A DNA stretch of 64,000 nucleotides from an uncultured Eudoraea sp. (GTDB lineage Bacteria; Bacteroidota; Bacteroidia; Flavobacteriales; Flavobacteriaceae): contig NZ_CANLGX010000005.1 of assembly GCF_947490415.1 (NCBI RefSeq), forward strand, positions 1 to 64,000. Reading direction: 5' to 3'. Shown here one piece after another: positions 1 to 63,536 of the stretch. Positions within the stretch are counted from its first letter, which is position 1. The number at the start of each line of letters is the position of its first letter. Position numbers and translations under genes: made by a program. The notes under the pieces were generated by a model that was given only the letters and a program-made list of their open reading frames with translations, was not told the origin of the DNA and did no database searches.

Positions 1-296
1 AGAACAAAATAAACCCATCTGCCACAGACGGTCAGGTTCTTACTACCGTAGCAGGCAATGCGCAATGGGCTGCACCAACAGCCGGGGCAGTGCAAACAAC
101 CGCAGCAATAGACGGTGATGGACTAGCGGGAAACCCTTTGGATCTCGCTGACAATGCAGTAACAACAGCAAAAATAGCCGATGGACAAGTACAGACGGCA
201 GACATAGCCGATGCTAACGTGACCGAGAACAAAATAAACCCATCAGCCACAGACGGTCAGGTTCTTACTACCGTAGCAGGCAATGCACAATGGGCT
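1..296 (+). repeat. 75-codon tandem repeat, two visible copies of the conserved block
   Basis: The block at 1-71 recurs almost perfectly at 226-296, a spacing of 225 bp or exactly 75 codons. More copies probably lie to the left of the window. The period preserves the reading frame, so copy number could change without frameshift. Confidence 0.85.
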
Positions 297-587
297 ACTG
301 TTCCTAGTCCTGTAAAAGGTATTGCAAAGATCAATAGTATAGGAACAATTGCACAAGCAACTTCTGGTTTAATTAATAGCGTTGTTTCTAATATTACTGG
401 GGAATATACAGTTAACTTAAATGCAGGATTTGTTACTACAACCAATTTTATATTGCAACTAAGTGTTCTTGGTGATTATAGAATTTATGCAACGGGACAG
501 GGCACCAATAGTTTTACCATTCAAATAAAGACCGGTCAAACTAACGCACTAGTAAATGCTGATTGGTATTTTACAATTTCGGAATAA
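3..587 (+). CDS. C-terminal part of a repeat-containing surface (fibre-like) protein, 5' truncated by the window edge
   Basis: The frame is open from the left edge, so the true start lies outside the window; the internal GTG at 90 is not a credible start. The visible 194 residues hold at least one full 75-residue repeat (Ala/Asp/Thr-rich, with TAKIADGQ and ATDGQVLTTVAGNAQWA-type motifs), then a ~90-residue C-terminal domain rich in Val, Thr and Asn, which I infer to be a beta-rich tip. No T9SS C-terminal sorting domain is visible. The stop lies 4 nt before the CHU_C-domain gene at 592, the same arrangement as the 1926-aa gene and its partner at 7686. The family is not recognised by name; a secreted fibre or adhesin is inferred. 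Confidence 0.8.
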   Translation, partial: NKINPSATDGQVLTTVAGNAQWAAPTAGAVQTTAAIDGDGLAGNPLDLADNAVTTAKIADGQVQTADIADANVTENKINPSATDGQVLTTVAGNAQWATVPSPVKGIAKINSIGTIAQATSGLINSVVSNITGEYTVNLNAGFVTTTNFILQLSVLGDYRIYATGQGTNSFTIQIKTGQTNALVNADWYFTISE

Positions 588-591
588 TTAG

Positions 592-1737
592 ATGAAAATT
601 AGGTTAACTATCATATCGCTTTTATTAGGTCAGGTGATACTTGCCCAAACCGCCCTGTACAACAGCGGGAACATTCGTATTCACCAGGACGGGCAGCTGG
701 GTTTTCATACGGACCTTATCAACAATGCCTCTTTTGATGAAAACCTGGGCCTGGCAGGCTTTTACGGCAGCTCCCTGATCTCCGTAACCGGAGCCTTTGC
801 CCCCGTATTTTTCGATACCGAAATTGCGAATGACCTGGGGGTGCAACTCAATACCTCCCTAAATGTGACCAACAACACCAACTTTGTGGTGGGCGACTTT
901 ATAACCCCACGTAATTCAGTAGACATCTATTACAATTTTATCCGCGATGCCTTTTATGTAGGCTCCGGAGACGGTTCTAAAATAGACGGTTATGCCTCCC
1001 TGACAGGGCAACAAAGCTTTACATTTCCGGTAGGAGATTCACAACAGTTAAGGCCTTTGATTCTAAATTCAGATAGCGCTAATGCCTTTGCCAGATGCGC
1101 GTACTTTTTTGAAGATCCCAATAATCCTTCCACTTTTCCAGGTTTTAATACAGATCTAAAACCCAGATCCATAGATGCGATAAGCAACCGGGAATTTTGG
1201 CGTCTGGAAGGAACTGTCCCTTCCACCATAACGCTCAGCTGGAATGCCAGAAGCGACATAGCCTCTCTGGCTACAGATATTAATGCAGTAACCCTTATGG
1301 GCTGGAATAAGCAGTCAAACAGTTGGATTCCTCTTGGGAGTGCCGCTATAGGGGGCGACCTTACCACCGGATTTGTAAGTTCTGAAACCTTTGTCCCGGA
1401 TGACTTTGAGGTGATTACCTTTGGAAGCCTGGCCGAACCAGAGGATATTTTAACCCTGGACAACTATTTTGTTTCCCCTAACGGAGACGGCATAAATGAT
1501 GTTTTGGTCATTGAAGAAATGGAACTAAGCCCCAACAACAGCATCCGGATTTTTGACCGCTATGGTTTGAAGGTCTTTGAAATGACGAATTATACCAATG
1601 AATTTGGAGGTATTTCCAACATAGATAATCTGGTAATTAACCGGGAACAAGGCCTGCCTGAAGGAGTATATTTCTATGTTATTTCGCTGGATGACCTGGG
1701 TTTAAATTATCAGGGCTTTTTGTTTTTGGATCGATAA
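592..1737 (+). CDS. T9SS type B sorting domain (CHU_C) protein, fibre-module partner
   Basis: The 381-residue protein begins with a signal peptide (about residues 1-19, ending LAQ). A ~270-residue unique region follows, with the motifs YFFEDPNN and REFWRLEG and an IRIHQDG-type N-terminus. The last ~90 residues are a gliding-motility-associated C-terminal domain (CHU_C/TIGR04131 type): NYFVSPNGDGINDVL, then SIRIFDRYG and GVYFYVI. In characterised Bacteroidetes this domain directs export through the type IX system and surface display. The gene starts 4 nt after the upstream repeat protein and is clearly paralogous to the gene at 7686. The role of the unique region is unknown; a surface scaffold or anchor for the upstream fibre protein is an inference. 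Confidence 0.9.
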   Translation: MKIRLTIISLLLGQVILAQTALYNSGNIRIHQDGQLGFHTDLINNASFDENLGLAGFYGSSLISVTGAFAPVFFDTEIANDLGVQLNTSLNVTNNTNFVVGDFITPRNSVDIYYNFIRDAFYVGSGDGSKIDGYASLTGQQSFTFPVGDSQQLRPLILNSDSANAFARCAYFFEDPNNPSTFPGFNTDLKPRSIDAISNREFWRLEGTVPSTITLSWNARSDIASLATDINAVTLMGWNKQSNSWIPLGSAAIGGDLTTGFVSSETFVPDDFEVITFGSLAEPEDILTLDNYFVSPNGDGINDVLVIEEMELSPNNSIRIFDRYGLKVFEMTNYTNEFGGISNIDNLVINREQGLPEGVYFYVISLDDLGLNYQGFLFLDR

Positions 1738-1901
1738 TTCAGGGCACTGAACAGGTCGATAAAGTGCCATATTCTACGGTAATTAAAAGCTATTCTTCTT
1801 TTCACCACACATTTTTAGAGCTACACAACATTTTCTATACAGGTCCTCATCTTAGGGGTATTTTTACGTTCAATTAATGATTTGGCCCAAATCTTTATAA
1901 A

Positions 1902-4900
1902 ATGAACCTAAAAAAATTGCTTTTTGCACTGTTAGTCGTGTCTTCAACCCTAGCGACAGCACAGGTAAAAATTGGTGAAAACCCCAATAACATTAATTCT
2001 GCTTCTATTTTAGAATTGGAAAGCAGTAACAAAGCTTTAGTTCTTACCCGGCTTACTACAGCTCAAATGCAAAGCATTACCCCATTGCGTGGCGCTTTGG
2101 TTTATAATATTGAAGCCCAATGCGTCTTCATGTACAATGGAACACAATGGAATGACCTCTGTAGCGGGTCAGGCTCAACTCCAGGTACTTTTACTTTTGT
2201 TGATAATGGAAATGGAACTTTTACCATAAATTATTCGGACGGAACCTCTTTTACTTCTTCAGATTTAACAGGACCACAGGGATTACCGGGTATCGATGGT
2301 GCAGATGGCGTTGATGGAACAAATGGTATTGATGGTACTGATGGTAATGGGATTGCCTCTACAACAGATAACGGCAACGGCACTTTTACCCTGAACTTTA
2401 CCGATGGATCAAGTTTTACCACTATGGACCTTACTGGTCCGGCAGGAGCTAATGGCGCTGATGGAACAAATGGTATTGATGGTGCTGATGGCGCTGATGG
2501 AACTAATGGTTTGGACGGTCTTAATGGAACAGACGGTGTTGACGGAACGGACGGTGCTGATGGCAACGGGATTGCTTCTACAACAGATAATGGCAATGGA
2601 ACTTTTACCCTGAATTTTACAGACGGATCAAGTTTTACCACTACGGACCTTACTGGTCCGGCAGGAGCTAATGGCACTGATGGTGTTGATGGAACAAATG
2701 GTATTGATGGTGCTGACGGAACAGACGGTGCTGATGGCAATGGGATTGCTTCTACAACAGATAACGGCAACGGAACTTTTACCCTGAATTTTACAGACGG
2801 ATCAAGTTTTACCACTATGGACCTTACTGGTCCGGCAGGAGCTAATGGCGCTGATGGAACAAATGGTACTAATGGTGCTGACGGAACAGATGGTGCCGAT
2901 GGCAACGGGATTGCTTCTACAACAGATAACGGTAACGGAACTTTTACCCTGAACTTTACCGACGGGTCAAGTTTTACCACTTCAGATTTAACAGGACCAC
3001 AGGGACTGCAGGGAATACCGGGTATCGATGGCATAAATGGTGCTGACGGAACAGATGGTGCCGATGGCAACGGGATTGCTTCTACATCAGATAACGGCAA
3101 TGGAACTTTTACCCTGAATTTTACAGACGGATCAAGTTTTACCACTATGGACCTTACTGGTCCGGCAGGAGCTAATGGCGCTGATGGAACAAATGGTATT
3201 GATGGTGCTGACGGAACGGATGGTGCCGATGGTAATGGGATTGCCTCTACAACAGATAACGGCAACGGAACTTTCACCCTGAATTTTACAGACGGATCGA
3301 GCTTTACTACTTCAGATTTAACAGGGCCACAGGGACTGCAGGGAATACCGGGTGTCGATGGCTCAGACGGAACAAATGGTGTTGATGGTGCTAACGGAAC
3401 AGACGGTGCTGATGGCAACGGGATTGCTTCTACAAGTGATAACGGCAACGGAACTTTCACCCTGAATTTTACCGACGGATCGAGCTTTACTACTTCAGAT
3501 TTAACAGGGCCACAGGGACTGCAGGGATTACCAGGTATCGATGGTACAGATGGCATAAATGGTGCTGACGGAACAGATGGTGCCGATGGCAACGGGATTG
3601 CTTCTACATCAGATAACGGCAACGGAACTTTTACCCTGAACTTTTCCGATGGATCCAGCTTTACTACTTCAGATCTCACTGGTCCGGCAGGAGTTAATGG
3701 CGCTGATGGTATTGATGGAACGGACGGTGCTGATGGCAACGGAATTGCCTCTACAACAGATAACGGTAACGGAACCTTTACCCTGAATTTTACAGACGGA
3801 TCAAGTTTTACCACTATGGACCTTACTGGTCCGGCAGGAGCTAATGGCGCTGACGGAACAGACGGTGCCGATGGTAATGGGATTGCTTCTACAACAGATA
3901 ACGGTAACGGTACTTTTACCCTGAACTTTACCGATGGATCCAGCTTTACTACTATGGACCTTACTGGTCCGGCAGGAGCTAATGGCATTGATGGAACAAA
4001 TGGTATTGATGGTACAGATGGTAATGGGATTGCTTCTACAACAGATAACGGGAACGGAACCTTTACCCTGAACTTTACCGACGGATCGAGCTTTACTACT
4101 TCAGATTTAACAGGGCCACAGGGACTGCAGGGAATACCTGGTATAGATGGTGCAGACGGCACAAATGGTATTGATGGTGTTGACGGAACAAATGGTATTG
4201 ATGGTACAGATGGTAATGGGATTGCTTCTACAACAGATAACGGCAACGGAACTTTCACCCTGAATTTTACTGACGGATCAAGTTTTACTACTTCAGATTT
4301 AACAGGACCACAGGGACTGCAAGGAATACCTGGTATAGATGGTGCAGACGGCACAAATGGTATTGATGGTGTTGACGGAACAAATGGTGCTGATGGCAAC
4401 GGGATTGCTTCTACATCAGATAACGGTAACGGAACTTTTACCCTGAACTTTACCGACGGGTCAAGCTTTACTACTTCAGATTTAACAGGGCCACAGGGAC
4501 TGCAGGGAATACCGGGTGTCGATGGTACAGATGGCATAAATGGTGCTGACGGAACAGACGGTGCCGATGGTAATGGGATTGCTTCTACAAGTGATAACGG
4601 CAACGGAACTTTTACCTTGAGCTTTACCGACGGATCGAGCTTTACTACTTCAGATTTAACAGGGCCACAGGGACTGCAGGGATTACCGGGTGTCGATGGT
4701 ACAGATGGCATAAATGGTGCTGACGGAACAGACGGCACGGATGGTAACGGGATTGCCTCTTCAACAGATAACGGTAACGGAACTTTTACCCTGAATTTTA
4801 CAGACGGATCGAGCTTTACTACTTCAGATTTAACAGGGCCACAGGGACTGCAGGGATTACCAGGTATCGATGGTACAGATGGCATAAATGGTGCTGACGG

Positions 4901-7682
4901 AACAGATGGTGCCGATGGCAACGGGATTGCTTCTACATCAGATAACGGCAATGGAACTATTACCCTGAACTTTACCGACGGATCGAGCTTTACTTCTTCA
5001 GATTTAACAGGACCACAGGGACTGCAAGGAATACCTGGTATAGATGGTGCAGACGGCACAAATGGTATTGATGGTGTTGACGGAACAAATGGTATTGATG
5101 GTACAGATGGTAATGGGATTGCTTCTACAACAGATAACGGCAACGGAACTTTCACCCTGAATTTTACAGACGGATCAAGTTTTACCACTATGGACCTTAC
5201 TGGTCCGGCAGGAGCTAATGGCGCTGATGGAACAAATGGTATTGATGGTGCTGACGGAACAGACGGCGCGGATGGCAACGGGATTGCTTCTACATCAGAT
5301 AACGGCAATGGAACTTTTACCCTGAACTTTACCGACGGATCGAGCTTTACTACTTCAGATTTAACAGGGCCACAGGGACTGCAGGGATTACCAGGTATCG
5401 ATGGTACAGATGGCATAAATGGTGCTGACGGAACAGACGGTGCTGATGGCAACGGAATAGCCTCTACAACAGATAACGGCAACGGAACTTTTACCTTGAG
5501 CTTTACCGACGGATCGAGCTTTACTACTTCAGATTTAACAGGGCCACAGGGAATACCGGGTGTCGATGGCTCAGACGGAACAAATGGTGTTGATGGTGCT
5601 GACGGAACAGACGGTGCAGATGGCAATGGGATTGCTTCTACAACAAATAATGGCAATGGAACTTTTACCCTGAATTTTACCGACGGATCGAGTTTTACTA
5701 CTTCAGATTTAACAGGGCCACAGGGACTGCAGGGATTACCAGGTATCGATGGTACAGATGGCATAAATGGTGCTGACGGAACAGATGGTGCCGATGGCAA
5801 CGGGATTGCTTCTACAACAGATAACGGCAACGGAACTTTTACCCTGAATTTTAACGATGGGTCAAGTTTTACCACTATGGACCTTACTGGTCCGGCAGGA
5901 GCTAATGGCACTGATGGAACAAATGGTACTAATGGTGATGACGGAACAGACGGTGCTGATGGCAACGGAATAGCCTCTACAACAGATAACGGCAACGGAA
6001 CTTTTACCTTGAGCTTTACCGACGGATCAAGTTTTACCACTTCAGATTTAACAGGACCACAGGGATTACCGGGTATCGATGGTGCAGATGGCGCTGACGG
6101 AACTAATGGCGTGGACGGTCTTAATGGAACAGACGGTGTTGACGGATCGGACGGTGCCGATGGTAATGGGATTGCTTCTACAAGTGATAACGGCAACGGA
6201 ACTTTCACCCTGAATTTTACAGACGGAACGAGCTTTACTACTTCAGATTTAACAGGGCCACAGGGACTGCAGGGATTACCAGGTATCGATGGTACAGATG
6301 GCATAAATGGTGCTGACGGAACAGATGGTGCCGATGGCAATGGGATTGCTTCTACATCAGATAACGGTAACGGAACTTTTACCCTGAACTTCACCGATGG
6401 ATCAAGCTTTACTTCTTCAGATTTAACAGGACCACAGGGATTACCGGGTATCGATGGTGCAGATGGCGCTGACGGAACTAATGGCGTGGACGGTCTTAAT
6501 GGAACAGACGGTGTTGACGGATCGGACGGTGCCGATGGTAATGGGATTGCTTCTACAAGTGATAACGGCAACGGAACTTTCACCCTGAATTTTACCGACG
6601 GATCGAGCTTTACTACTTCAGATTTAACAGGGCCACAGGGACTGCAGGGATTACCGGGTGCAGATGGCGTTGATGGAACAAATGGTATTGATGGTACTGA
6701 TGGTAATGGGATTGCCTCTACAACAGATAACGGCAACGGTACTTTTACACTGAATTTTACCGACGGATCGAGCTTTACTACTTCAGATTTAACAGGACCA
6801 CAGGGACTGCAGGGAATACCGGGTGTCGATGGTACAGATGGTATTGATGGTGCTGATGGCAACGGGATTGCCTCTACAACAGATAACGGTAACGGAACTT
6901 TCACCCTGAACTTTACCGATGGATCAAGTTTTACCACTATGGACCTGACTGGTCCGGCAGGAGCTGATGGTGTTGATGGCTTAGATGGTACAGAAATTTC
7001 GGGAACTTCGGGCTCAATCTTTTTTGCAGGTTCCGATGGAAAAATAACCGAAAATAATAGTCAGGTATTTTGGGACAATACCAATAATCGATTGGGAATT
7101 GCAACCAATGGCCCAACTGAAAAAATTGATGTTAACGGGAGTGCGAGGTTTAGAACATTGAGTAGCGCCGATAATACTGATGATATTCTGGCAGCAGATG
7201 CTTCTGGGGTATTGCAAAGATCTCAAATTAACTACGGTGCCAGATGGATAAACAGCAATACTTCTACCAATCTTAACGTTGATAATACAATTGCACCAAT
7301 TTTTGGGATACAGGATTATAATGATGATAGTTCAAATTTATATATCGCTACAAGTACATCCCTCACCGTAAAGATAGCCGGGAGATATGATATTAGGGCG
7401 AATTTGTCTTTAATAGGAATTGATTCTAACCAAAAAACAGAAGAAGGAACGAACGTAAATGCCCGAATTGCTGTAAATAGTATTCCTATTGGAGCCATTG
7501 GAGCCTCAGGCTTTATCAGATATAATTATGATAATGATCATTCCAGCATACACCTTAACGAAATATTACAACTTAACGCTAATGATGTTGTAACGATAAT
7601 AACCTACAGAGAAGCAAATTCAGGTACCGTTCAATTTAGTGGCTCCGGAGAATCCAGTTTTGTAATAAACAAACTACGATAG
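1902..7682 (+). CDS. Giant collagen-like/beta-repeat fibre protein with C1q/TNF-like head
   Basis: This 1926-residue protein has a signal peptide (about residues 1-20, ending ATA/Q). An N-terminal stretch of ~80 residues is followed by about 28 repeat units from residue ~98 to ~1690. Each unit has a beta-strand part (DNGNGTFTLNFTDGSSFTT.DLTGP) and a Gly-rich part of variable length made of GxD/GxN/GPQG triplets, like bacterial collagen-like proteins. The C-terminus has a tail-fibre-like segment (NNRLGIATNGPTEKIDVNG, near residue 1730) and a ~150-residue region whose pattern suggests a jelly-roll C1q/TNF-type head. I see no type A or B T9SS domain. The stop is 3 nt before the CHU_C-domain partner at 7686. 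A long trimeric surface fibre is inferred; the exact start is supported by the signal peptide. Confidence 0.9.
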   Translation: MNLKKLLFALLVVSSTLATAQVKIGENPNNINSASILELESSNKALVLTRLTTAQMQSITPLRGALVYNIEAQCVFMYNGTQWNDLCSGSGSTPGTFTFVDNGNGTFTINYSDGTSFTSSDLTGPQGLPGIDGADGVDGTNGIDGTDGNGIASTTDNGNGTFTLNFTDGSSFTTMDLTGPAGANGADGTNGIDGADGADGTNGLDGLNGTDGVDGTDGADGNGIASTTDNGNGTFTLNFTDGSSFTTTDLTGPAGANGTDGVDGTNGIDGADGTDGADGNGIASTTDNGNGTFTLNFTDGSSFTTMDLTGPAGANGADGTNGTNGADGTDGADGNGIASTTDNGNGTFTLNFTDGSSFTTSDLTGPQGLQGIPGIDGINGADGTDGADGNGIASTSDNGNGTFTLNFTDGSSFTTMDLTGPAGANGADGTNGIDGADGTDGADGNGIASTTDNGNGTFTLNFTDGSSFTTSDLTGPQGLQGIPGVDGSDGTNGVDGANGTDGADGNGIASTSDNGNGTFTLNFTDGSSFTTSDLTGPQGLQGLPGIDGTDGINGADGTDGADGNGIASTSDNGNGTFTLNFSDGSSFTTSDLTGPAGVNGADGIDGTDGADGNGIASTTDNGNGTFTLNFTDGSSFTTMDLTGPAGANGADGTDGADGNGIASTTDNGNGTFTLNFTDGSSFTTMDLTGPAGANGIDGTNGIDGTDGNGIASTTDNGNGTFTLNFTDGSSFTTSDLTGPQGLQGIPGIDGADGTNGIDGVDGTNGIDGTDGNGIASTTDNGNGTFTLNFTDGSSFTTSDLTGPQGLQGIPGIDGADGTNGIDGVDGTNGADGNGIASTSDNGNGTFTLNFTDGSSFTTSDLTGPQGLQGIPGVDGTDGINGADGTDGADGNGIASTSDNGNGTFTLSFTDGSSFTTSDLTGPQGLQGLPGVDGTDGINGADGTDGTDGNGIASSTDNGNGTFTLNFTDGSSFTTSDLTGPQGLQGLPGIDGTDGINGADGTDGADGNGIASTSDNGNGTITLNFTDGSSFTSSDLTGPQGLQGIPGIDGADGTNGIDGVDGTNGIDGTDGNGIASTTDNGNGTFTLNFTDGSSFTTMDLTGPAGANGADGTNGIDGADGTDGADGNGIASTSDNGNGTFTLNFTDGSSFTTSDLTGPQGLQGLPGIDGTDGINGADGTDGADGNGIASTTDNGNGTFTLSFTDGSSFTTSDLTGPQGIPGVDGSDGTNGVDGADGTDGADGNGIASTTNNGNGTFTLNFTDGSSFTTSDLTGPQGLQGLPGIDGTDGINGADGTDGADGNGIASTTDNGNGTFTLNFNDGSSFTTMDLTGPAGANGTDGTNGTNGDDGTDGADGNGIASTTDNGNGTFTLSFTDGSSFTTSDLTGPQGLPGIDGADGADGTNGVDGLNGTDGVDGSDGADGNGIASTSDNGNGTFTLNFTDGTSFTTSDLTGPQGLQGLPGIDGTDGINGADGTDGADGNGIASTSDNGNGTFTLNFTDGSSFTSSDLTGPQGLPGIDGADGADGTNGVDGLNGTDGVDGSDGADGNGIASTSDNGNGTFTLNFTDGSSFTTSDLTGPQGLQGLPGADGVDGTNGIDGTDGNGIASTTDNGNGTFTLNFTDGSSFTTSDLTGPQGLQGIPGVDGTDGIDGADGNGIASTTDNGNGTFTLNFTDGSSFTTMDLTGPAGADGVDGLDGTEISGTSGSIFFAGSDGKITENNSQVFWDNTNNRLGIATNGPTEKIDVNGSARFRTLSSADNTDDILAADASGVLQRSQINYGARWINSNTSTNLNVDNTIAPIFGIQDYNDDSSNLYIATSTSLTVKIAGRYDIRANLSLIGIDSNQKTEEGTNVNARIAVNSIPIGAIGASGFIRYNYDNDHSSIHLNEILQLNANDVVTIITYREANSGTVQFSGSGESSFVINKLR
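2196..6965 (+). repeat. About 28 tandem imperfect repeats inside the fibre gene
   Basis: Units of roughly 120-220 bp share a near-identical core encoding NGNGTFTLNFTDGSSFTT and differ in the length of the Gly-Asp/Gly-Asn triplet run. Two variants of the joint alternate irregularly, LTGPAGANG and LTGPQGLQG(I/L)PG. Several non-adjacent units are nearly identical in DNA, which suggests duplication or gene conversion. A long antisense frame over this block is a by-product of the repeat composition. Confidence 0.95.
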
Positions 7683-7685
7683 TAA

Positions 7686-8846
7686 ATGAGATACCTTATT
7701 GCCATATTACTATTCTTGGCGTGGTGCTTTCAGCTAATGAGTCAGGAAGCACTGCACAATTATGGCACTATACAGATCCATGAAACCGCAATGGTTGGAT
7801 TACATTTGGATCTCATCAATGACGGTAGTTTTGACCAGAATATGGGCCTGGTCGGTTTTTACAGTGATTTTGGTCAGCTAACAGTCTCTGGGGCTTTTAC
7901 GCCCATCTTTTTTGATGCTGAAATAGCCGTTGAAGACGGTTTGGTACTGCAAACTTCTTTGGGTGTAAACAATAATGGAAATTTAATTACAGGTGATATT
8001 ATCACGCCCAGGACGCAATCAGGAGTTTATTCAAATTTCTTTGACAACTCTTTTTATACCGGTGAAAGCAGTGTTTCAAAAGTATATGGCTATGCGGCGA
8101 TGACCAATAAAGATACTTTTATATTTCCAGTTGGTGATGACCAAAGGCTAAGACCTTTAACCATAAGATCTATGGCCACAAATTCTTTGGCAAAATGTGC
8201 CTACTTTTTTGAAGATCCCAATAATTCAAAAACTTTAAACGCCTTTTTCAACACAAATAAAAGGGCCTCAGAATATATGTCTGTCAGTGATAAAGAATTT
8301 TGGAGACTGGAAGGAGATGTTCCTTCCCATGTAACTCTAAGTTGGGATGGTTACAGCAATGTTGCAGCCTTAGGTGAATTTATGAGCGATCTCAAAGTGG
8401 TCGGCTGGAGCAAATCTGAAAGCCAATGGGTTAGTTTGGGTAACACCGCTGTAGAAGGTGGTATGGCCTACGGCACCATTACTTCAGATCTTTTTGTCCC
8501 CAATGATTATGAGATTATTACCATAGGAGGAAATGATGACATGCTTGAAACCTTTGATACCATTGAGTTGGATAACTATTATATGACCCCCAATGGTGAC
8601 GGTCAAAATGACGTGCTAACCATTGAAGGCCTCGAAAATTCTCCTAGCAATTCCCTTCAGATTTTTAACCGATACGGTGTTTTGGTCTATACTAAAGATA
8701 ACTACAGAGGCGATTTTAATGGGTATTCCAACATGGAAAATGCAATTCAAAAGGATTCTGGATTAGAAACCGGCATCTACTTTTATATCATTACACTTAA
8801 TGATTTGCGAAGAAAACACCAGGGCTATCTCTATATTTCCAACTAG
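7686..8846 (+). CDS. T9SS type B sorting domain (CHU_C) protein, second copy
   Basis: The 386-residue protein has a signal peptide (about residues 1-19, ending MSQ), a unique region paralogous to the gene at 592 along its whole length (shared IQIHETA/IRIHQDG start, YFFEDPNN, EFWRLEG, VTLSWD), and a C-terminal CHU_C domain (NYYMTPNGDGQNDVL, SLQIFNRYGVLVY, GIYFYIITL). It starts 3 nt after the giant fibre gene, so the two are probably translated from one mRNA. Export by the type IX system to the cell surface is expected from the domain. The link with the fibre protein rests on gene order only. Confidence 0.9.
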   Translation: MRYLIAILLFLAWCFQLMSQEALHNYGTIQIHETAMVGLHLDLINDGSFDQNMGLVGFYSDFGQLTVSGAFTPIFFDAEIAVEDGLVLQTSLGVNNNGNLITGDIITPRTQSGVYSNFFDNSFYTGESSVSKVYGYAAMTNKDTFIFPVGDDQRLRPLTIRSMATNSLAKCAYFFEDPNNSKTLNAFFNTNKRASEYMSVSDKEFWRLEGDVPSHVTLSWDGYSNVAALGEFMSDLKVVGWSKSESQWVSLGNTAVEGGMAYGTITSDLFVPNDYEIITIGGNDDMLETFDTIELDNYYMTPNGDGQNDVLTIEGLENSPSNSLQIFNRYGVLVYTKDNYRGDFNGYSNMENAIQKDSGLETGIYFYIITLNDLRRKHQGYLYISN

Positions 8847-8940
8847 TCCGTTATTCCAATTAAATCCTCTCATCATTCTACCAGCCTTCAGGGATTCATT
8901 TTGCCTTATCAACAGATAAACCCTCTACAGTGTATATTTT

Positions 8941-8965
8941 TTTGTCAAAATACTTATTAACTTTG
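8941..8965 (+). promoter_or_regulatory. Candidate Bacteroidetes promoter upstream of the VanY-like gene
   Basis: TTTG at 8941-8944 and an exact TAnnTTTG box, TAACTTTG, at 8958-8965. The spacer of 13 nt is shorter than usual. The implied leader of ~135 nt contains an 8-bp inverted repeat (8980-8987 with 8994-9001). Confidence 0.35.
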
Positions 8966-9107
8966 AAGTAAGCTGTTTAGATGTAAATCATACTTTACAT
9001 CCTTACATGGCAAAATAATTATATTTAAGAATCCTATTTAAATAAATGGTATCTTATTTGATTGGAAGATACAAATCATATAATGTCCCTGATTAAACCG
9101 AAAAATT

Positions 9108-9839
9108 ATGGAAAGAAGGTTATTTATTAAAAGAAGTGGGTTTTGTGGTCTGGCCCTAACTATTGTCCCAAGTACCCTTTTAATTCAGGATACCAAATAT
9201 TCCATTGAGGAATTAATGGGCAAAGAAGATATTGAGTTATACGGTGATGGTATTAATTTAAGGAAGGAAGCACATGATGCATTTGTTGAAATGAAAAAGG
9301 CAGCCTTAGCTGATGGTATAGACATAAAAATCGTCTCAAGTTATCGGAGTTTTGATAGGCAGGCAGTAATTTTTGAACGTAAATATTTAAAATATACGGA
9401 TGATGGGATGGAACCACTGGATGCAATTGATAAGATAATTGAGTATTCTACCATTCCTGGTACAAGCAGGCACCATTGGGGAACTGATATGGATCTTATT
9501 GATGGGGCCCCCAAGGTAGATGGCGATGTGCTTGACGCCAGTAAATTCAGTACAGGAGGACCATTTGAAAAATTCAAACTTTGGATGGACGAAAACTCTA
9601 AAAAGTTTGATTATTACCTGGTTTATACAGATGATTCCAAGAGGAAAGGCTTTAAATATGAACCATGGCACTACAGTTACGCCCCCCTATCCATACCTAT
9701 GCTTAAATCTTTCAGACTTAAAAATATTATGAAACAATTGGAGCAGGAAGACTTTTTGGGCAGTGATCATTTGACTACAGAATTTGTAAAGACATATATC
9801 GAGGATAATATACTCGATATTAATCCAGAACTTTTGTAG
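9108..9839 (+). CDS. VanY/M15-type D-alanyl-D-alanine carboxypeptidase
   Basis: The 243-residue protein fits zinc D,D-carboxypeptidases that trim peptidoglycan stem peptides. It shows the family SSYRSF motif (residues 77-82), a zinc site His122-x6-Asp129 in SRHHWGTDMD, and the EPWHYSY motif with catalytic Glu185 and zinc-ligand His188. The N-terminus carries ERRLFIK followed by a hydrophobic stretch, a twin-arginine type signal, so Tat export of a folded enzyme is likely. The metalloprotease gene follows 41 nt downstream on the same strand. The family assignment is firm; the true substrate is inferred. Confidence 0.9.
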   Translation: MERRLFIKRSGFCGLALTIVPSTLLIQDTKYSIEELMGKEDIELYGDGINLRKEAHDAFVEMKKAALADGIDIKIVSSYRSFDRQAVIFERKYLKYTDDGMEPLDAIDKIIEYSTIPGTSRHHWGTDMDLIDGAPKVDGDVLDASKFSTGGPFEKFKLWMDENSKKFDYYLVYTDDSKRKGFKYEPWHYSYAPLSIPMLKSFRLKNIMKQLEQEDFLGSDHLTTEFVKTYIEDNILDINPELL

Positions 9840-52093: not shown

Positions 52094-53026
52094 ATGAAAA
52101 AAATTGCCCTAGCTGTCCATGGAGGTGCCGGAACCCTCGTCAAGGGAATGATGACTCCTGAAAAAGAAAGCTTATATAAAGCCGTTTTAAAAAGTGCCTT
52201 ACACAAGGGGTATCTGCTTTTAGAATCCGGTAGATCTGCGGTAGAAGCAGTTGAGGCATCTGTTAAAGAACTTGAAGATTCACATTTGTTTAATGCCGGA
52301 AAGGGAAGTGTATTCACTTCTGAAGGGAAACATGAAATGGATGCTTCCATTATGGATGGAAAAACCCTTAATGCAGGAGCCGTTTCTTTGGTAAGTGGTA
52401 TAAAAAATCCTATTAGCCTGGCTCGGGATGTTATGGAAAAAAGCGATCATGTTTTCCTTGCTTCTAAAGGTGCTATGCAATTTGCAGAGAAACTGAAATA
52501 CCATCTTGAAGACGAGAAATATTTCTATGATGAACTTCGCTTCCAGCAATGGCAGGAAATTAAAGGTACCAAAGATTTTAAGCTGGACCATTCAGTGAAA
52601 AAGGATGCAAAATTTGGAACTGTTGGCGCTGTAGCTTGTGATAATTTCGGGAATCTGGCTGCTGCAACTTCCACCGGAGGCATGACCAACAAACAATTTG
52701 GAAGAGTTGGTGATAGTCCGATGATTGGAGCAGGAAATTATGCCAATAATAAAACATGTGCTGTTTCCTGTACGGGTAGTGGTGAATATTTTATCAGAGG
52801 GGTTGTTGCATATGATTTGTCCTGCTTGATGGAATACAAAAACCTATCACTTCAGGATGCCGCAGAGGTGCTTATCCAAAAACGTTTGCTGAAGTTAGGA
52901 GGAGATGGCGGTTTAATTGCAGTAGATGCCCTTGGCAATATTGCAATGCCTTTTAACACAGAAGGCATGTATAGGGCCTGCAAATCCTCAGACAGCGCAG
53001 ATCAAATAAGTATTTATAGGAATTAA
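52094..53026 (+). CDS. iaaA: Isoaspartyl peptidase / L-asparaginase (Ntn-hydrolase)
   Basis: The 310-residue threonine-type Ntn hydrolase self-cleaves before Thr176 in KFGTVGAVACD. It shows AVHGGAGT at the N-terminus and GNLAAATSTGGMTNK and GAGNYAN after the nucleophile. Enzymes of this family hydrolyse beta-aspartyl dipeptides, including beta-Asp-Arg released from cyanophycin. It meets the cyanophycinase gene tail to tail with a 4-nt overlap, and cyanophycin synthetase lies beyond, so completing cyanophycin breakdown is the likely job. Confidence 0.94.
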   Translation: MKKIALAVHGGAGTLVKGMMTPEKESLYKAVLKSALHKGYLLLESGRSAVEAVEASVKELEDSHLFNAGKGSVFTSEGKHEMDASIMDGKTLNAGAVSLVSGIKNPISLARDVMEKSDHVFLASKGAMQFAEKLKYHLEDEKYFYDELRFQQWQEIKGTKDFKLDHSVKKDAKFGTVGAVACDNFGNLAAATSTGGMTNKQFGRVGDSPMIGAGNYANNKTCAVSCTGSGEYFIRGVVAYDLSCLMEYKNLSLQDAAEVLIQKRLLKLGGDGGLIAVDALGNIAMPFNTEGMYRACKSSDSADQISIYRN

Positions 53027-53886
53027 GAAGTTGGAAAAGGAGCGTCAAGGGGTAATACCTTTACTTTACCTTTTTTCATGTTAAAGCGGTCCCCATTTGC
53101 CAGTACATGTGTTTTAAGATTTATCAGAGACATAGGTGTACCTTTCTCAAGGATCTTTTCGTTATTGTGTTTTAGTTTTCTTGGGTCAAACATAATAACC
53201 ATCCCAGAACCTATGATCTCAAAAGTGCTGCTGTTTTTAATAACCAGGCCAGTATCTTCCGCTAGACCAATACCCATCATGTCCGGATGTTTAGCCACGG
53301 CTTCCGCAAGTCGTCCAAAACGGCCTCTACGAATAAAATGGGAGTCTATGATTAAATTAGAAATGAATCCCATTCCGGTATCCATTTTTACAGCTCCTTT
53401 TATAAATGATTCCGTACTGCTGCCACCTGCAATCATTTCGCTGGACATGCACATTGCACCTGCGCTGGTTCCGGCTATCACCAACGAGTCTTTTCTATAA
53501 CGTTCTATAAGCACTTCATGTAACCTAGTGTTGCCTATTTTTGCAGTGATTTTAGATTGGTTTCCTCCGGAGAACATCACGCATTGTGCATTTACAATCC
53601 ATTCCAGGTTTTTTGGATTTTCAGACTCTTTCCTATCTCGAATATCCATAATATGTACCTTACGACATCCTAATTTGTCAAAGGCCTTGAGGTAACTATC
53701 ACTTACCTCTTTTGGAATACTTGAGGCAGTTGGAATAACAACAATTTGTGCCTCATTACCCCCACTCTCACTTACCACTCTGGAGAGGATACTTTCCTGA
53801 ATAAATTCCAGGTGAAACGACTCGCCTGTTTCTGTCCCTTTATCCTCATTTCCTCCAATGGGAATTAAAGTTCCTTTTACCACCAT
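53023..53886 (-). CDS. cphB: Cyanophycinase
   Basis: The 287-residue serine exopeptidase of the S51 family releases beta-Asp-Arg dipeptides from cyanophycin. It has GTLIPIGGNEDKG at the N-terminus, CVMFSGGNQSKI, the nucleophile Ser141 in IAGTSAGAMCMS, and later GMGFISNLIIDSHFIRRGRFGRL. It starts 166 nt from the cyanophycin synthetase gene, in divergent orientation. No signal peptide is visible, so it is the intracellular type. Confidence 0.95.
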   Translation of the reverse strand: MVVKGTLIPIGGNEDKGTETGESFHLEFIQESILSRVVSESGGNEAQIVVIPTASSIPKEVSDSYLKAFDKLGCRKVHIMDIRDRKESENPKNLEWIVNAQCVMFSGGNQSKITAKIGNTRLHEVLIERYRKDSLVIAGTSAGAMCMSSEMIAGGSSTESFIKGAVKMDTGMGFISNLIIDSHFIRRGRFGRLAEAVAKHPDMMGIGLAEDTGLVIKNSSTFEIIGSGMVIMFDPRKLKHNNEKILEKGTPMSLINLKTHVLANGDRFNMKKGKVKVLPLDAPFPTS

Positions 53887-54052
53887 AATTTATGCTGTCT
53901 AGCTTGCAAAAATACAGCTATTGTTACAAAAAATGTCATATATTTATGAAATTACAAAGAACTTATCAAACTCACATTAACAGGTAGAAATAGTGTTCTA
54001 AGGCAGTTGCCGATTCATAAATCCACGGTTAAGAACCATAAAATCTAAGGTC

Positions 54053-56680
54053 ATGAAAATAAGAGAAATAAATGCCATGAGGGGACCAAATTACTGGTCT
54101 ATACGCCGCCACAGACTTATTGTTATGGTCTTGGATTTGGAAGAAATGGAAGAATTGCCAACCAACAAAATAGAAGGTTTCGCCGACCGTATTCGAGAGA
54201 TGTTTCCAAGTATGTACGCTCACAGATGTTCAGAAGGATGTGAAGGAGGTTTTTTTATGCGCGTAGATGAAGGAACATGGATGGGCCATGTAATTGAGCA
54301 TATTGCCCTGGAAATACAAACGCTGGCGGATATGGATACCGGATTCGGAAGAACACGCGGATATGGGGAAAAAGGAGTATACAATGTTGTTTTCTCTTAC
54401 ATTGAAGAGTCGGTAGGAAGATATGCTGCTAAAGCTGCTGTTCGTATTTGTGAAGCATTAATTGCTGGTGATCCTTATGATCTTGAAGAAGACATACAAC
54501 GTATGCGCGAACTTCGGGAATCTGAACGACTTGGTCCTAGTACTGGGTCTATTGTTCTGGAAGCCCAAAGCCGTGGAATACCATGGATACGGTTAAACAA
54601 GTATTCCCTGGTACAACTTGGTTATGGAGCCAATCAGAAAAGGATACAGGCCACCGTAACCAGTGAGACCAGCAGTATTGGAGTTGAATTGGCATGTGAT
54701 AAGGAAGACACTAAATATCTTTTGGAACAGGCCGAGGTTGAAGTCCCCAGAGGAGATATCATCAGCAGGGAAAGTGGCTTGGAAGATGCTTGCCGTTATG
54801 TGGGATACCCACTTGTTATTAAACCAATCGATGGAAATCACGGCAGAGGAATTACGGTAGATATCAATTCTTATAAGGATGCGCTTGAGGCCTTTAAGGT
54901 TGCCAAAGAAGTATCGAGAAGGGTCATAGTGGAGAAATATATTACAGGCGAGGATTACCGTCTTTTAGTTATTAACAACAATTTCGTTGCCGCAGCAAAA
55001 CGTACCCCGGCTCATGTTGTAGGTGATGGAAAATCTACCATAGAGGAATTGGTTGAGGAAGTGAATAAAGATCCGCGAAGGGGATATGGTCATGAGAAAG
55101 TACTTACCGCAATAACCATAAACGATCTGACAAAAACGATTATCGCCGATGCCGGCTATACTGTAGACTCAGTATTAAAGGAGGGAGAGCGATTAATTTT
55201 AAAGGATACCGCTAATTTAAGTACCGGAGGTACTGCCGAAGATGTTACCGATATCGTTCATCCTGCCAACGTATCAATGGCGGAAAGGATTTCAAAGATT
55301 ATAGACCTTGATATCTGTGGGATCGACGTAATGACCAGTGATATTAGCCAGCCTCTTTCAGACACAGGAGGTGCAGTTTTGGAAGTAAATGCAGGGCCTG
55401 GTTTCAGGATGCACCTCGCTCCCACCAGCGGGTTACCAAGAAACGTTGCTGCTCCTGTAGTAGATAAATTATTTCCTCAAAAAGGTGATACAGGAAGGAT
55501 TCCCATTGTGGCTATTACCGGAACTAATGGTAAAACGACGACCAGCAGGCTCATAGCCCATATAGCTAAAATGAATGGACAAAGGGTAGGCTATACCACA
55601 AGTGATGGGGTTTATATTCAAAATAGGATGTTGATGAAAGGTGATTGTACGGGCCCTGCAAGTGCAGAGTTTGTTTTAAAGGATCCTACCGTCAATTTTG
55701 CTGTACTGGAATGTGCACGAGGTGGTTTATTAAGAGCCGGCCTGGGTTTTAAAAAATGTGATGTTGCCATAGTTACCAACGTTTCGGCAGATCATTTGGG
55801 TTTAAAAGGCATCCATACTATAGAACAACTTGCCAGGGTTAAGGCGGTGATCCCGGAAACCGTGCTACCCGATGGTTATGCCATCCTAAATGCGGATGAC
55901 GATTTGGTTTACGAAATGCGCAGAAACATAAATTGCAATCTTGCGCTGTTCTCCATGGATGAAAACAATCCCAGGATACAGGCCTTACAAAGAATAGGCG
56001 GAATAACTGCCATTTATGAGAATGGCTACGTAACCCTTTGCAGGGGTGAGTGGAAAATGCGGTTAATGAAAGCAGAAAATATTCCATTGACCTATGGTGG
56101 GAAGGCTCTTTTTATGATTCAAAATATACTACCGGCTATTATCGCAGCCAACGTTCAGGGTATTAGTATTGAAGATACGAAAGCGGCCTTAGAGACCTTT
56201 ATACCATCGGCTTCGAGTACTCCAGGGCGTTTAAATCTGTTTAAGTTTAAAAACTTTGACATTTTATTGGACTATGCTCACAATCCTGCAGGCATGCGTG
56301 CTTTGCAAAAGTTTACAAATAACCTAGAAGCTACAGTAAAAGTAGGGATCATAGCTGGTATAGGGGACCGCAGGGAAGAAGATAATAATGAGATGGGAAG
56401 TATAGCCGCAGAAATGTTTGATGAGATTATTATCAGACAGGATAAAAATTTGAGAGGTAAATCAGAGACTGATCTGATTAATATGTTGGATGCCGGAATT
56501 AAAAAGCAGGATCCAAACAAAAAAACAACCATTATTCCTTCAGAAAAAGATGCGATTACCCATGCGGTGGCTCATGCAGAAAAAGGATCCCTTATAGTGC
56601 TTTGTAGTGATGTGGTTCCGGATGCATTGGACCTTGTAAAGCATTTAAAAGATCAGGAGGCGAAGGGCGAATTAACTTAA
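54053..56680 (+). CDS. cphA: Cyanophycin synthetase
   Basis: CphA makes multi-L-arginyl-poly-L-aspartate from Asp, Arg and ATP without a ribosome. The 875-residue protein has the usual three parts: an N-terminal domain (residues ~1-160), an ATP-grasp domain (~215-480; HGRGITVDI, VIVEKYITGEDYRLLVI, AVLEVNAGPGFRMH), and a Mur-ligase-like domain (~490-870) with the P-loop GTNGKTTTSRLIAHI and LDYAHNPAGMRAL. The length is typical of CphA1. It is divergent from cphB and followed by a sugar porter. Confidence 0.96.
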   Translation: MKIREINAMRGPNYWSIRRHRLIVMVLDLEEMEELPTNKIEGFADRIREMFPSMYAHRCSEGCEGGFFMRVDEGTWMGHVIEHIALEIQTLADMDTGFGRTRGYGEKGVYNVVFSYIEESVGRYAAKAAVRICEALIAGDPYDLEEDIQRMRELRESERLGPSTGSIVLEAQSRGIPWIRLNKYSLVQLGYGANQKRIQATVTSETSSIGVELACDKEDTKYLLEQAEVEVPRGDIISRESGLEDACRYVGYPLVIKPIDGNHGRGITVDINSYKDALEAFKVAKEVSRRVIVEKYITGEDYRLLVINNNFVAAAKRTPAHVVGDGKSTIEELVEEVNKDPRRGYGHEKVLTAITINDLTKTIIADAGYTVDSVLKEGERLILKDTANLSTGGTAEDVTDIVHPANVSMAERISKIIDLDICGIDVMTSDISQPLSDTGGAVLEVNAGPGFRMHLAPTSGLPRNVAAPVVDKLFPQKGDTGRIPIVAITGTNGKTTTSRLIAHIAKMNGQRVGYTTSDGVYIQNRMLMKGDCTGPASAEFVLKDPTVNFAVLECARGGLLRAGLGFKKCDVAIVTNVSADHLGLKGIHTIEQLARVKAVIPETVLPDGYAILNADDDLVYEMRRNINCNLALFSMDENNPRIQALQRIGGITAIYENGYVTLCRGEWKMRLMKAENIPLTYGGKALFMIQNILPAIIAANVQGISIEDTKAALETFIPSASSTPGRLNLFKFKNFDILLDYAHNPAGMRALQKFTNNLEATVKVGIIAGIGDRREEDNNEMGSIAAEMFDEIIIRQDKNLRGKSETDLINMLDAGIKKQDPNKKTTIIPSEKDAITHAVAHAEKGSLIVLCSDVVPDALDLVKHLKDQEAKGELT

Positions 56681-63203: not shown

Positions 63204-63536
63204 GGATTAACTAACGTTCTTCCCTACAAGGCTCCGCCTTGAAAGTAACCGGGATTAACTAACGTTCTTCCCTAAAAGGCTCCGCCTTGAAAGTAACCGG
63301 GATTAACTAACGTTCTTCCCTAAAAGGCTCCGCCTTGAAAGTGACCGGGATTAACTAACGTTCTTCCCTAAAAGGCTCCGCCTTGAAAGTAACCGGGATT
63401 AACTAACGTTCTTCCCTACAAGGCTCCGCCTTGAAAGTAACCGGGATTAACTAACGTTCTTCCCTACAAGGCTCCGCCTTGAAAGTAACCTGGATTAACT
63501 AACGTTCTTCCCTACAAGGCTCCGCCTTGAAAGTAA
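63204..63536 (+). repeat. Seven-copy 48-bp tandem repeat
   Basis: Units start at 63204, 63252, 63300, 63348, 63396, 63444 and 63492; the last is cut after ~45 bp. Sequence is nearly identical, with A/C at one site (CCCTAAAAGG versus CCCTACAAGG) and rare changes near the unit ends. Each unit has an inverted repeat AAGGC-TCC-GCCTT and an AACGTT palindrome. All frames contain stops, so it is non-coding. Confidence 0.97.

Follow-up and report, generated by a model that had tools for sequence, protein, structure and literature searches.

In the T9SS substrates described in the cited sections of PMC12618676, PMC12635249, PMC10994853 and PMC9478572, the C-terminal signal is carried by the exported protein itself. 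According to the cited section of PMC10994853, type A substrates bind the translocon via this C-terminal domain (CTD) and are thought to exit CTD first with a carrier. Type B substrates need a PorP/SprF shuttle, often encoded directly downstream, as in the F. johnsoniae operons of substrate, shuttle and PorE exemplified by Fjoh_3952/3951/3950. Orphan type B substrates have also been published, and three in F. johnsoniae share one shuttle. The cited part of PMC12618676 regards type B substrates as adhesins, whether known or predicted, without reference to any fibre upstream.

The locus described here occupies positions 1-8846 of the window, the whole stretch of 64,000 nucleotides that was analysed. 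It consists of two tandem modules on the + strand, each a fibre gene followed by a gene for a protein of ~380 aa that we call the adaptor. A near parallel is the gliding adhesin SprB of F. johnsoniae with SprF, a surface adhesin that the T9SS exports by way of a type B CTD and that a PorP/SprF-type carrier retains (cited sections of PMC12618676 and PMC12635249). In SprB, however, the CTD is part of the adhesin, whereas here CTD and fibre are split between two genes, and the array contains no sprF-like gene. The grappling hook protein GhpA of Aureispira (PDB 9flp), a large surface protein, matches the adaptor CTD with its C-terminus (profile positions 292-379, E 6e-13), but it is one 5898-aa chain with its own CTD, and the match stops short of the adaptor's unique domain. 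Phage tail fibres (PHROG) likewise combine a constant base, a repeat shaft and a swapped tip, with sequence similarity in shaft and tip; unlike them, the fibres here have a signal peptide, a chromosomal site among cell genes and a paired T9SS protein. The collagen-like adhesins Scl, Lcl and BclA likewise have a collagen shaft with a globular tip, but fibre 2 does not reach the NCBIfam thresholds of Scl and Lcl and has no LPXTG end by eye. The pieces are of known kinds, a type B CTD and collagen-like and phage-fibre-like repeats, and our searches of open-licence PMC papers turned up no account of exchangeable fibres served by a distinct CTD adaptor.

The features of the array are collected in Table 1. 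Gaps inside the modules measure 4 nt (module 1) and 3 nt (module 2), and 164 nt separate the two. The VanY gene at the right border is the next gene after the adaptor for 21 of 41 adaptors in a first set of loci and for 22 of 57 in a replication set. A promoter and terminator scan of 300-9300 returned fewer sites than shuffled sequence and was uninformative.

Table 1. Features of the two modules and their right border, in window coordinates
Feature	Position	Strand	Remarks
Fibre 1, 3' end (final 194 aa, comprising the last part of the 75-aa repeat array and the C-terminal tip)	3..587	+	5' open
Fibre 1 tip domain	300..584	+	H_lectin match weak (E 0.026, below gathering score)
Adaptor 1, 381 aa	592..1737	+	Signal peptide by eye, ~265-aa domain, type B T9SS CTD
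Adaptor 1 unique beta-rich domain (~265 aa)	646-1440	+	Sequence and AlphaFold2 model
Adaptor 1 type B T9SS CTD	1456-1728	+	CHU_C / TIGR04131
Fibre 2, 1926 aa	1902..7682	+	Collagen-like shaft, no T9SS CTD found
Fibre 2 signal peptide	1902..1961	+	By eye
Fibre 2 base domain	1962..2162	+	Common to fibre 1 and fibres of many relatives
Fibre 2 shaft	2289..6994	+	Tandem repeats in which collagen triplets and GNGTFTLNFTDGSSFT units alternate
Fibre 2 tip	7230..7679	+	C1q-like by eye; phrog_28263 (phage tail fibre), E 3.9e-10
Adaptor 2, 386 aa	7686..8846	+	Signal peptide by eye, unique domain, type B CTD
Adaptor 2 unique domain	7743-8531	+	
Adaptor 2 type B CTD	8565-8837	+	
VanY-family peptidase gene	9108..9839	+	Right border of array, outside module

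The first base of contig C5 is also that of the window. Following the original prediction, which had proposed extending the contig leftwards, we located the front part of fibre 1 (796 aa, open at the contig end) at C9:101058-103445, the right end of contig C9. The 75-aa repeat continues there at C9:102729-103445, its only other site in the genome. Two relatives with single-contig genomes (L054; L056 with L057) have arrays whose left and right flanks correspond to those seen on C9 and C5, respectively. This flank order places the contig break within the repeat and gives our genome two modules. Only two adaptor genes were found in this genome at E<=1e-3, with no third. The suggestion that more modules might exist to the left is not borne out for this genome, as flank order gives exactly two. 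The left end of C9 (L016, C9:1-14000) is another contig break within a repeat protein, near a run of genes for a 1417-aa CHU_C protein, a PorP/SprF protein and, by eye, an OmpA-like protein. N stretches, masked or unassembled, also interrupt fibre genes in some relatives (e.g. L067:4516-6501, L257), as expected where repeats break assemblies.

The two adaptors align end to end at 46-47% identity, in agreement with the proposal that they are paralogous over their full length. Both match CHU_C (PF13585; E 3.2e-24 and 4.6e-27; 85.3 and 94.4 bits, cut-off 27) and the type B CTD model TIGR04131 (43.0 and 45.8 bits, cut-off 35), and count as type B substrates by this C-terminal TIGR04131/CHU_C domain above cut-off. 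The AlphaFold2 model of the adaptor has a mean pLDDT of 81, and Foldseek found no match to it in the PDB at E<=0.001. A search for the adaptor on plasmids gave one weak match (E 0.01), which was set aside.

The fibres had been described as differing completely in repeat type. They do differ in repeat type, shaft and tip, but the C9 piece reveals that both fibres share a signal peptide (by eye) and an N-terminal base domain of ~67 aa, 55% identical between them. Their repetitive nature is borne out by 23 collagen stretches in fibre 2, by the tandem arrays at 2289-6994 and by the 75-aa repeat that resumes on C9. The Gly-X-X repeat of fibre 2 matches PF01391 (E 3.6e-86); no match of this collagen type occurs in the pieces of fibre 1. 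Pfam and NCBIfam searches of fibre 2 and of the fibre 1 pieces returned no T9SS CTD, and none is among the Pfam matches of 56 C-terminal pieces of fibre or fibre-like genes; the layout of a SprB-like one-chain adhesin with CTD was encountered neither in fibre 2 and the fibre 1 end nor in these 56 pieces. Fourteen of the pieces match PF01391 and two match BclA_C. An S74 chaperone was considered for the coiled-coil tip class and rejected, as Peptidase_S74 is absent from the 56 pieces (Pfam, E<=0.01). Against PHROG, the fibres match the tail fibre families phrog_28766 (2.9e-8) and phrog_28263 (3.9e-10) and phrog_5621, of unknown function (3.1e-5); the tail-fibre similarity lies in shaft and tip, and all phage families matched by the base are of unknown function. 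Fibre length is variable, for instance 1926 (G000), 1167 (G004), 912 (G001) and 490 aa (G002).

A genome search run without the initial pattern showed that the base domain recurs in fibres of many genera. The 21 base sequences aligned had been collected by a pattern search, so that the 15 invariant positions are partly so by construction. Its structure model is poor (pTM 0.48), and no match to the base exists among PDB sequences. Matches to 26 Synechococcus phage records (E 6e-3) were too weak to use.

The pairing of fibre and adaptor is general. Relatives of the adaptor's unique region occur in 33 of 149 genomes at E<=1e-3, and the adaptor is found at E<=1e-40 in 93 of 397 genomes of the family (58 of 237 genera). 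The first set comprised our genome, its relatives and six adaptors in five named loci (Allomuricauda, Maribacter twice, Muricauda, Cellulophaga). Among its 41 close adaptors, 21 share a same-strand run with a strong base-domain gene, 18 lie so close to a contig or locus edge that their upstream frame is truncated, and 2 belong to neither group. For replication, 40 regions were taken from previously unused genomes, with predictions recorded in advance; they held 57 close adaptors, 44 with a base-domain gene, 12 cut and 1 other; in one of the regions the sole adaptor scored below the threshold. The original prediction that adaptor homologues would be preceded by repeat fibre genes thus held in 21/23 and 44/45 uncut cases. 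Over the 98 adaptors examined, a same-strand run with a base-domain fibre is seen for 65 of the 68 whose upstream sequence is uncut. Two of the three exceptions (L067, L257) are base-domain fibre genes broken by masked N stretches, and the third is L073. The gap between the preceding gene and the adaptor has a median of 3 nt in both sets (start codons set by the longest frame); from the adaptor to the next same-strand gene it spans 9-413 nt, mostly >90, in the first set.

Across the 149 genomes, 20 have both adaptor (E<=1e-40) and base (E<=1e-20), 2 the adaptor only, 2 the base only and 125 neither (Fisher 1.6e-20, not corrected for kinship). The only two base domains of our genome at E<=1e-5 are those of the fibres described here, so its other 12 CHU_C genes have no adjoining base. 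As a control, 89 CHU_C genes were taken from elsewhere; none of the 59 with an upstream gene follows a base-domain gene (0/59), a weak control since no base domain occurs anywhere in those 71 loci. In a scan with a generic CHU_C pattern, 9 of 80 loci match beyond the CTD region, judged by printed ranges.

Variants of the module were also encountered. In genome G068 one of two fibre genes is not followed by an adaptor: the two (L072, L209) encode bases that differ at 1 of 63 residues and C-terminal ends that differ, and there is only one adaptor. Some operons hold two to four fibre-like genes per adaptor (L061, L075, L089, L260, L262, L283), some of these genes with a weaker base-domain match. 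In a small-fibre variant one adaptor is preceded by three genes, the first with the base domain (165-316 aa), the others of 230-240 aa and 255-563 aa (L067:8853-13088, L071:1522-5155, L088:7667-11083).

Exchange is seen in the slot next to the VanY gene. In seven genomes of the genus to which our genome belongs, the adaptors in this slot are 86-98% identical and the bases, where visible (4/7 genomes), 84-93% identical, and the tips are of four unrelated kinds. The adaptors of G003 and G005 are 98% identical and their tips 17%, no more than unrelated tips share in this comparison; with G065, a member of another genus, G003 has 54% tip identity. The opposite pattern occurs as well: G035 and G041 share 65-70% tip identity with G004 and G005, with adaptors only 40-41% identical. 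G006, the eighth member of the genus compared, has a more distant adaptor (57-60%) and the common tip. That fibres are exchangeable, as originally proposed, is shown by unrelated tips adjoining adaptors 86-98% identical. Single linkage groups 40 tips into 10 sequence classes, and 75 tips of both sets fall into 9; all 43 replication tips used fall in classes holding a first-set tip. The classes of the fibre 1 and fibre 2 tips count 8 fibres each. Against PDB sequences, tip 1 gave chance-level matches only (E 0.32-0.45) and tip 2 none.

The base follows the adaptor more closely than does the tip. In 32 modules of the first set, 9 of them matched across contig breaks by flank order, base and adaptor identities correlate (Spearman 0.35, 0/1000 permutations), against 0.09 for tip and adaptor (41/1000). 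Swapping bases within genomes lowered the mean to 0.07 from an observed 0.395 (0/2000), and swapping tips gave 1402/2000, i.e. no tip-adaptor link. With contiguous modules only, the signal is weaker (base 0.40, 5/1000; tip 0.07, 177/1000; swaps of bases 46/2000, of tips 538/2000). The 43 replication modules gave 0.48 for the base (0/1000; base swap 0/2000) and 0.07 for the tip (65/1000); the tip swap (50/2000) points to a weak tip-adaptor link, and the advance prediction of no such link failed here. Kilobases usually separate the base from the adaptor gene but only a few nt the tip, so that simple linkage predicts the reverse of the co-variation seen. This co-variation is our best evidence, albeit indirect, for a putative interface between base and adaptor; linked inheritance could contribute to part of the correlation.

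SprA scores over its cut-off at C6:29838-36848, by which the genome counts as having the translocon. The close-family adaptors are orphan: a same-strand PorP/SprF gene directly after the adaptor was found for 0 of 41 in the first set and 0 of 57 in replication. Our genome has eight PorP/SprF genes, five of them, by position, beside other CHU_C genes. An orphan PorP/SprF at C6:6004-6999 (L218) ends in a Cys-X-Cys tail, as described for SprF in the cited section of PMC12635249. As a shuttle for the adaptor it is still a candidate, but its presence says little because it is a core gene (one match each in 80 of 149 genomes, E<=1e-50). The 13 distant adaptor relatives, from Flavobacterium and Polaribacter among others by title, also tend to follow fibre-like genes: a QVGIGT-type base gene lies in the run in 7/13 by motif scan and in an eighth by eye (L078), a PorP/SprF gene in 10/13, a layout linked with type B export in the cited part of PMC12618676, and 3/13 are cut by edges. 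On contig C2 (L017:7369-13455), three CHU_C genes stand in a row with no PorP/SprF or base-domain gene adjoining.

From these observations we consider it fairly probable that the adaptor docks onto the base of a CTD-less fibre, takes the fibre through SprA and anchors it. We infer docking, piggy-back export, an oligomeric state of the fibre and a binding role for the tip. Each module would then make a two-part surface appendage. The fibre, with no T9SS signal of its own, would enter the periplasm by its Sec signal peptide, where its N-terminal base would bind the ~265-aa domain of the adaptor encoded beside it. The type B CTD of the adaptor would take the complex through the SprA translocon; if export proceeds CTD first, as assumed for type B by analogy with type A, the adaptor would trail the fibre behind. 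A PorP/SprF-type shuttle from elsewhere in the genome would receive the complex and keep it in the outer membrane, and the fibre would project with its C-terminal tip outermost. Tips would be exchanged by recombination between fibres of different species, with base and adaptor kept matched.

The main rival is that the adaptor only anchors: the fibre would cross the outer membrane otherwise, and the adaptor, exported alone by the T9SS, would catch its base at the surface. It explains the pairing and the base-adaptor co-variation equally well, and nothing here shows the T9SS moving multi-chain cargo. We nevertheless judge it unlikely, as no other outer-membrane exporter gene was seen by eye in the array or its flanks and no autotransporter domain appears among the Pfam and NCBIfam matches of fibre 2 and the pieces of fibre 1. 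Less plausible still, fibre and adaptor might be independent secreted adhesins that share a transcript but make no contact. The tight gaps do fit an operon, and linked genes show correlated histories, but the tip end, nearest the adaptor gene, tracks the adaptor least while the distant base tracks it, and the pairing recurs in 65/68 uncut cases.

In phages, genes for fibre chaperones adjoin the part of the fibre gene that codes for the C-terminus, and the adaptor gene occupies the same place. The adaptor could by this token be a periplasmic helper of fibre folding or assembly that leaves the cell as a by-product, which we find very improbable given that it has a type B CTD of its own, scoring over the TIGR04131 threshold, and given the 9 of 40 tips that end in a coiled coil of their own (by eye). 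A remnant of a prophage or tailocin tail-fibre region would account for shaft, tip and base matching phage families (phrog_28766, phrog_28263, phrog_5621), yet this origin is scarcely credible: no phage gene was seen nearby when the flanks were inspected by eye, the fibres have signal peptides, the same chromosomal neighbourhood recurs in many genera, and the adaptor has no match in 50,697 phage records (E<=0.01).

If the adaptor does carry and anchor the fibre, the separate adaptor would explain how proteins that need a free C-terminal tip can take the T9SS route, and would assign a function to one class of small type B CTD proteins. In a broader formulation, to which we give an even chance, the T9SS would export multi-chain cargo in trans: an adaptor bearing the only secretion signal would carry a CTD-less protein resembling phage tail fibres, and a fixed socket of base and adaptor with interchangeable tips would constitute a natural plug-in display in flavobacteria. 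It would be a bacterial surface counterpart of tip switching in phage tail fibres. A genome titled F. johnsoniae CI04 (L242) encodes a distant adaptor (profile E 1.5e-97) followed, by eye, by PorP/SprF- and PorE-like genes, with a collagen-containing fibre gene 541 nt upstream; with this distant module, the system may be testable in that species.

Elsewhere in the window, near the right end (63204-63536), a 48-bp unit is repeated in tandem about seven times, with copies 98% alike. Three adjoining genes at 52094-56680 resemble, by eye, what we take to be an isoaspartyl peptidase, a cyanophycinase and a cyanophycin synthetase.
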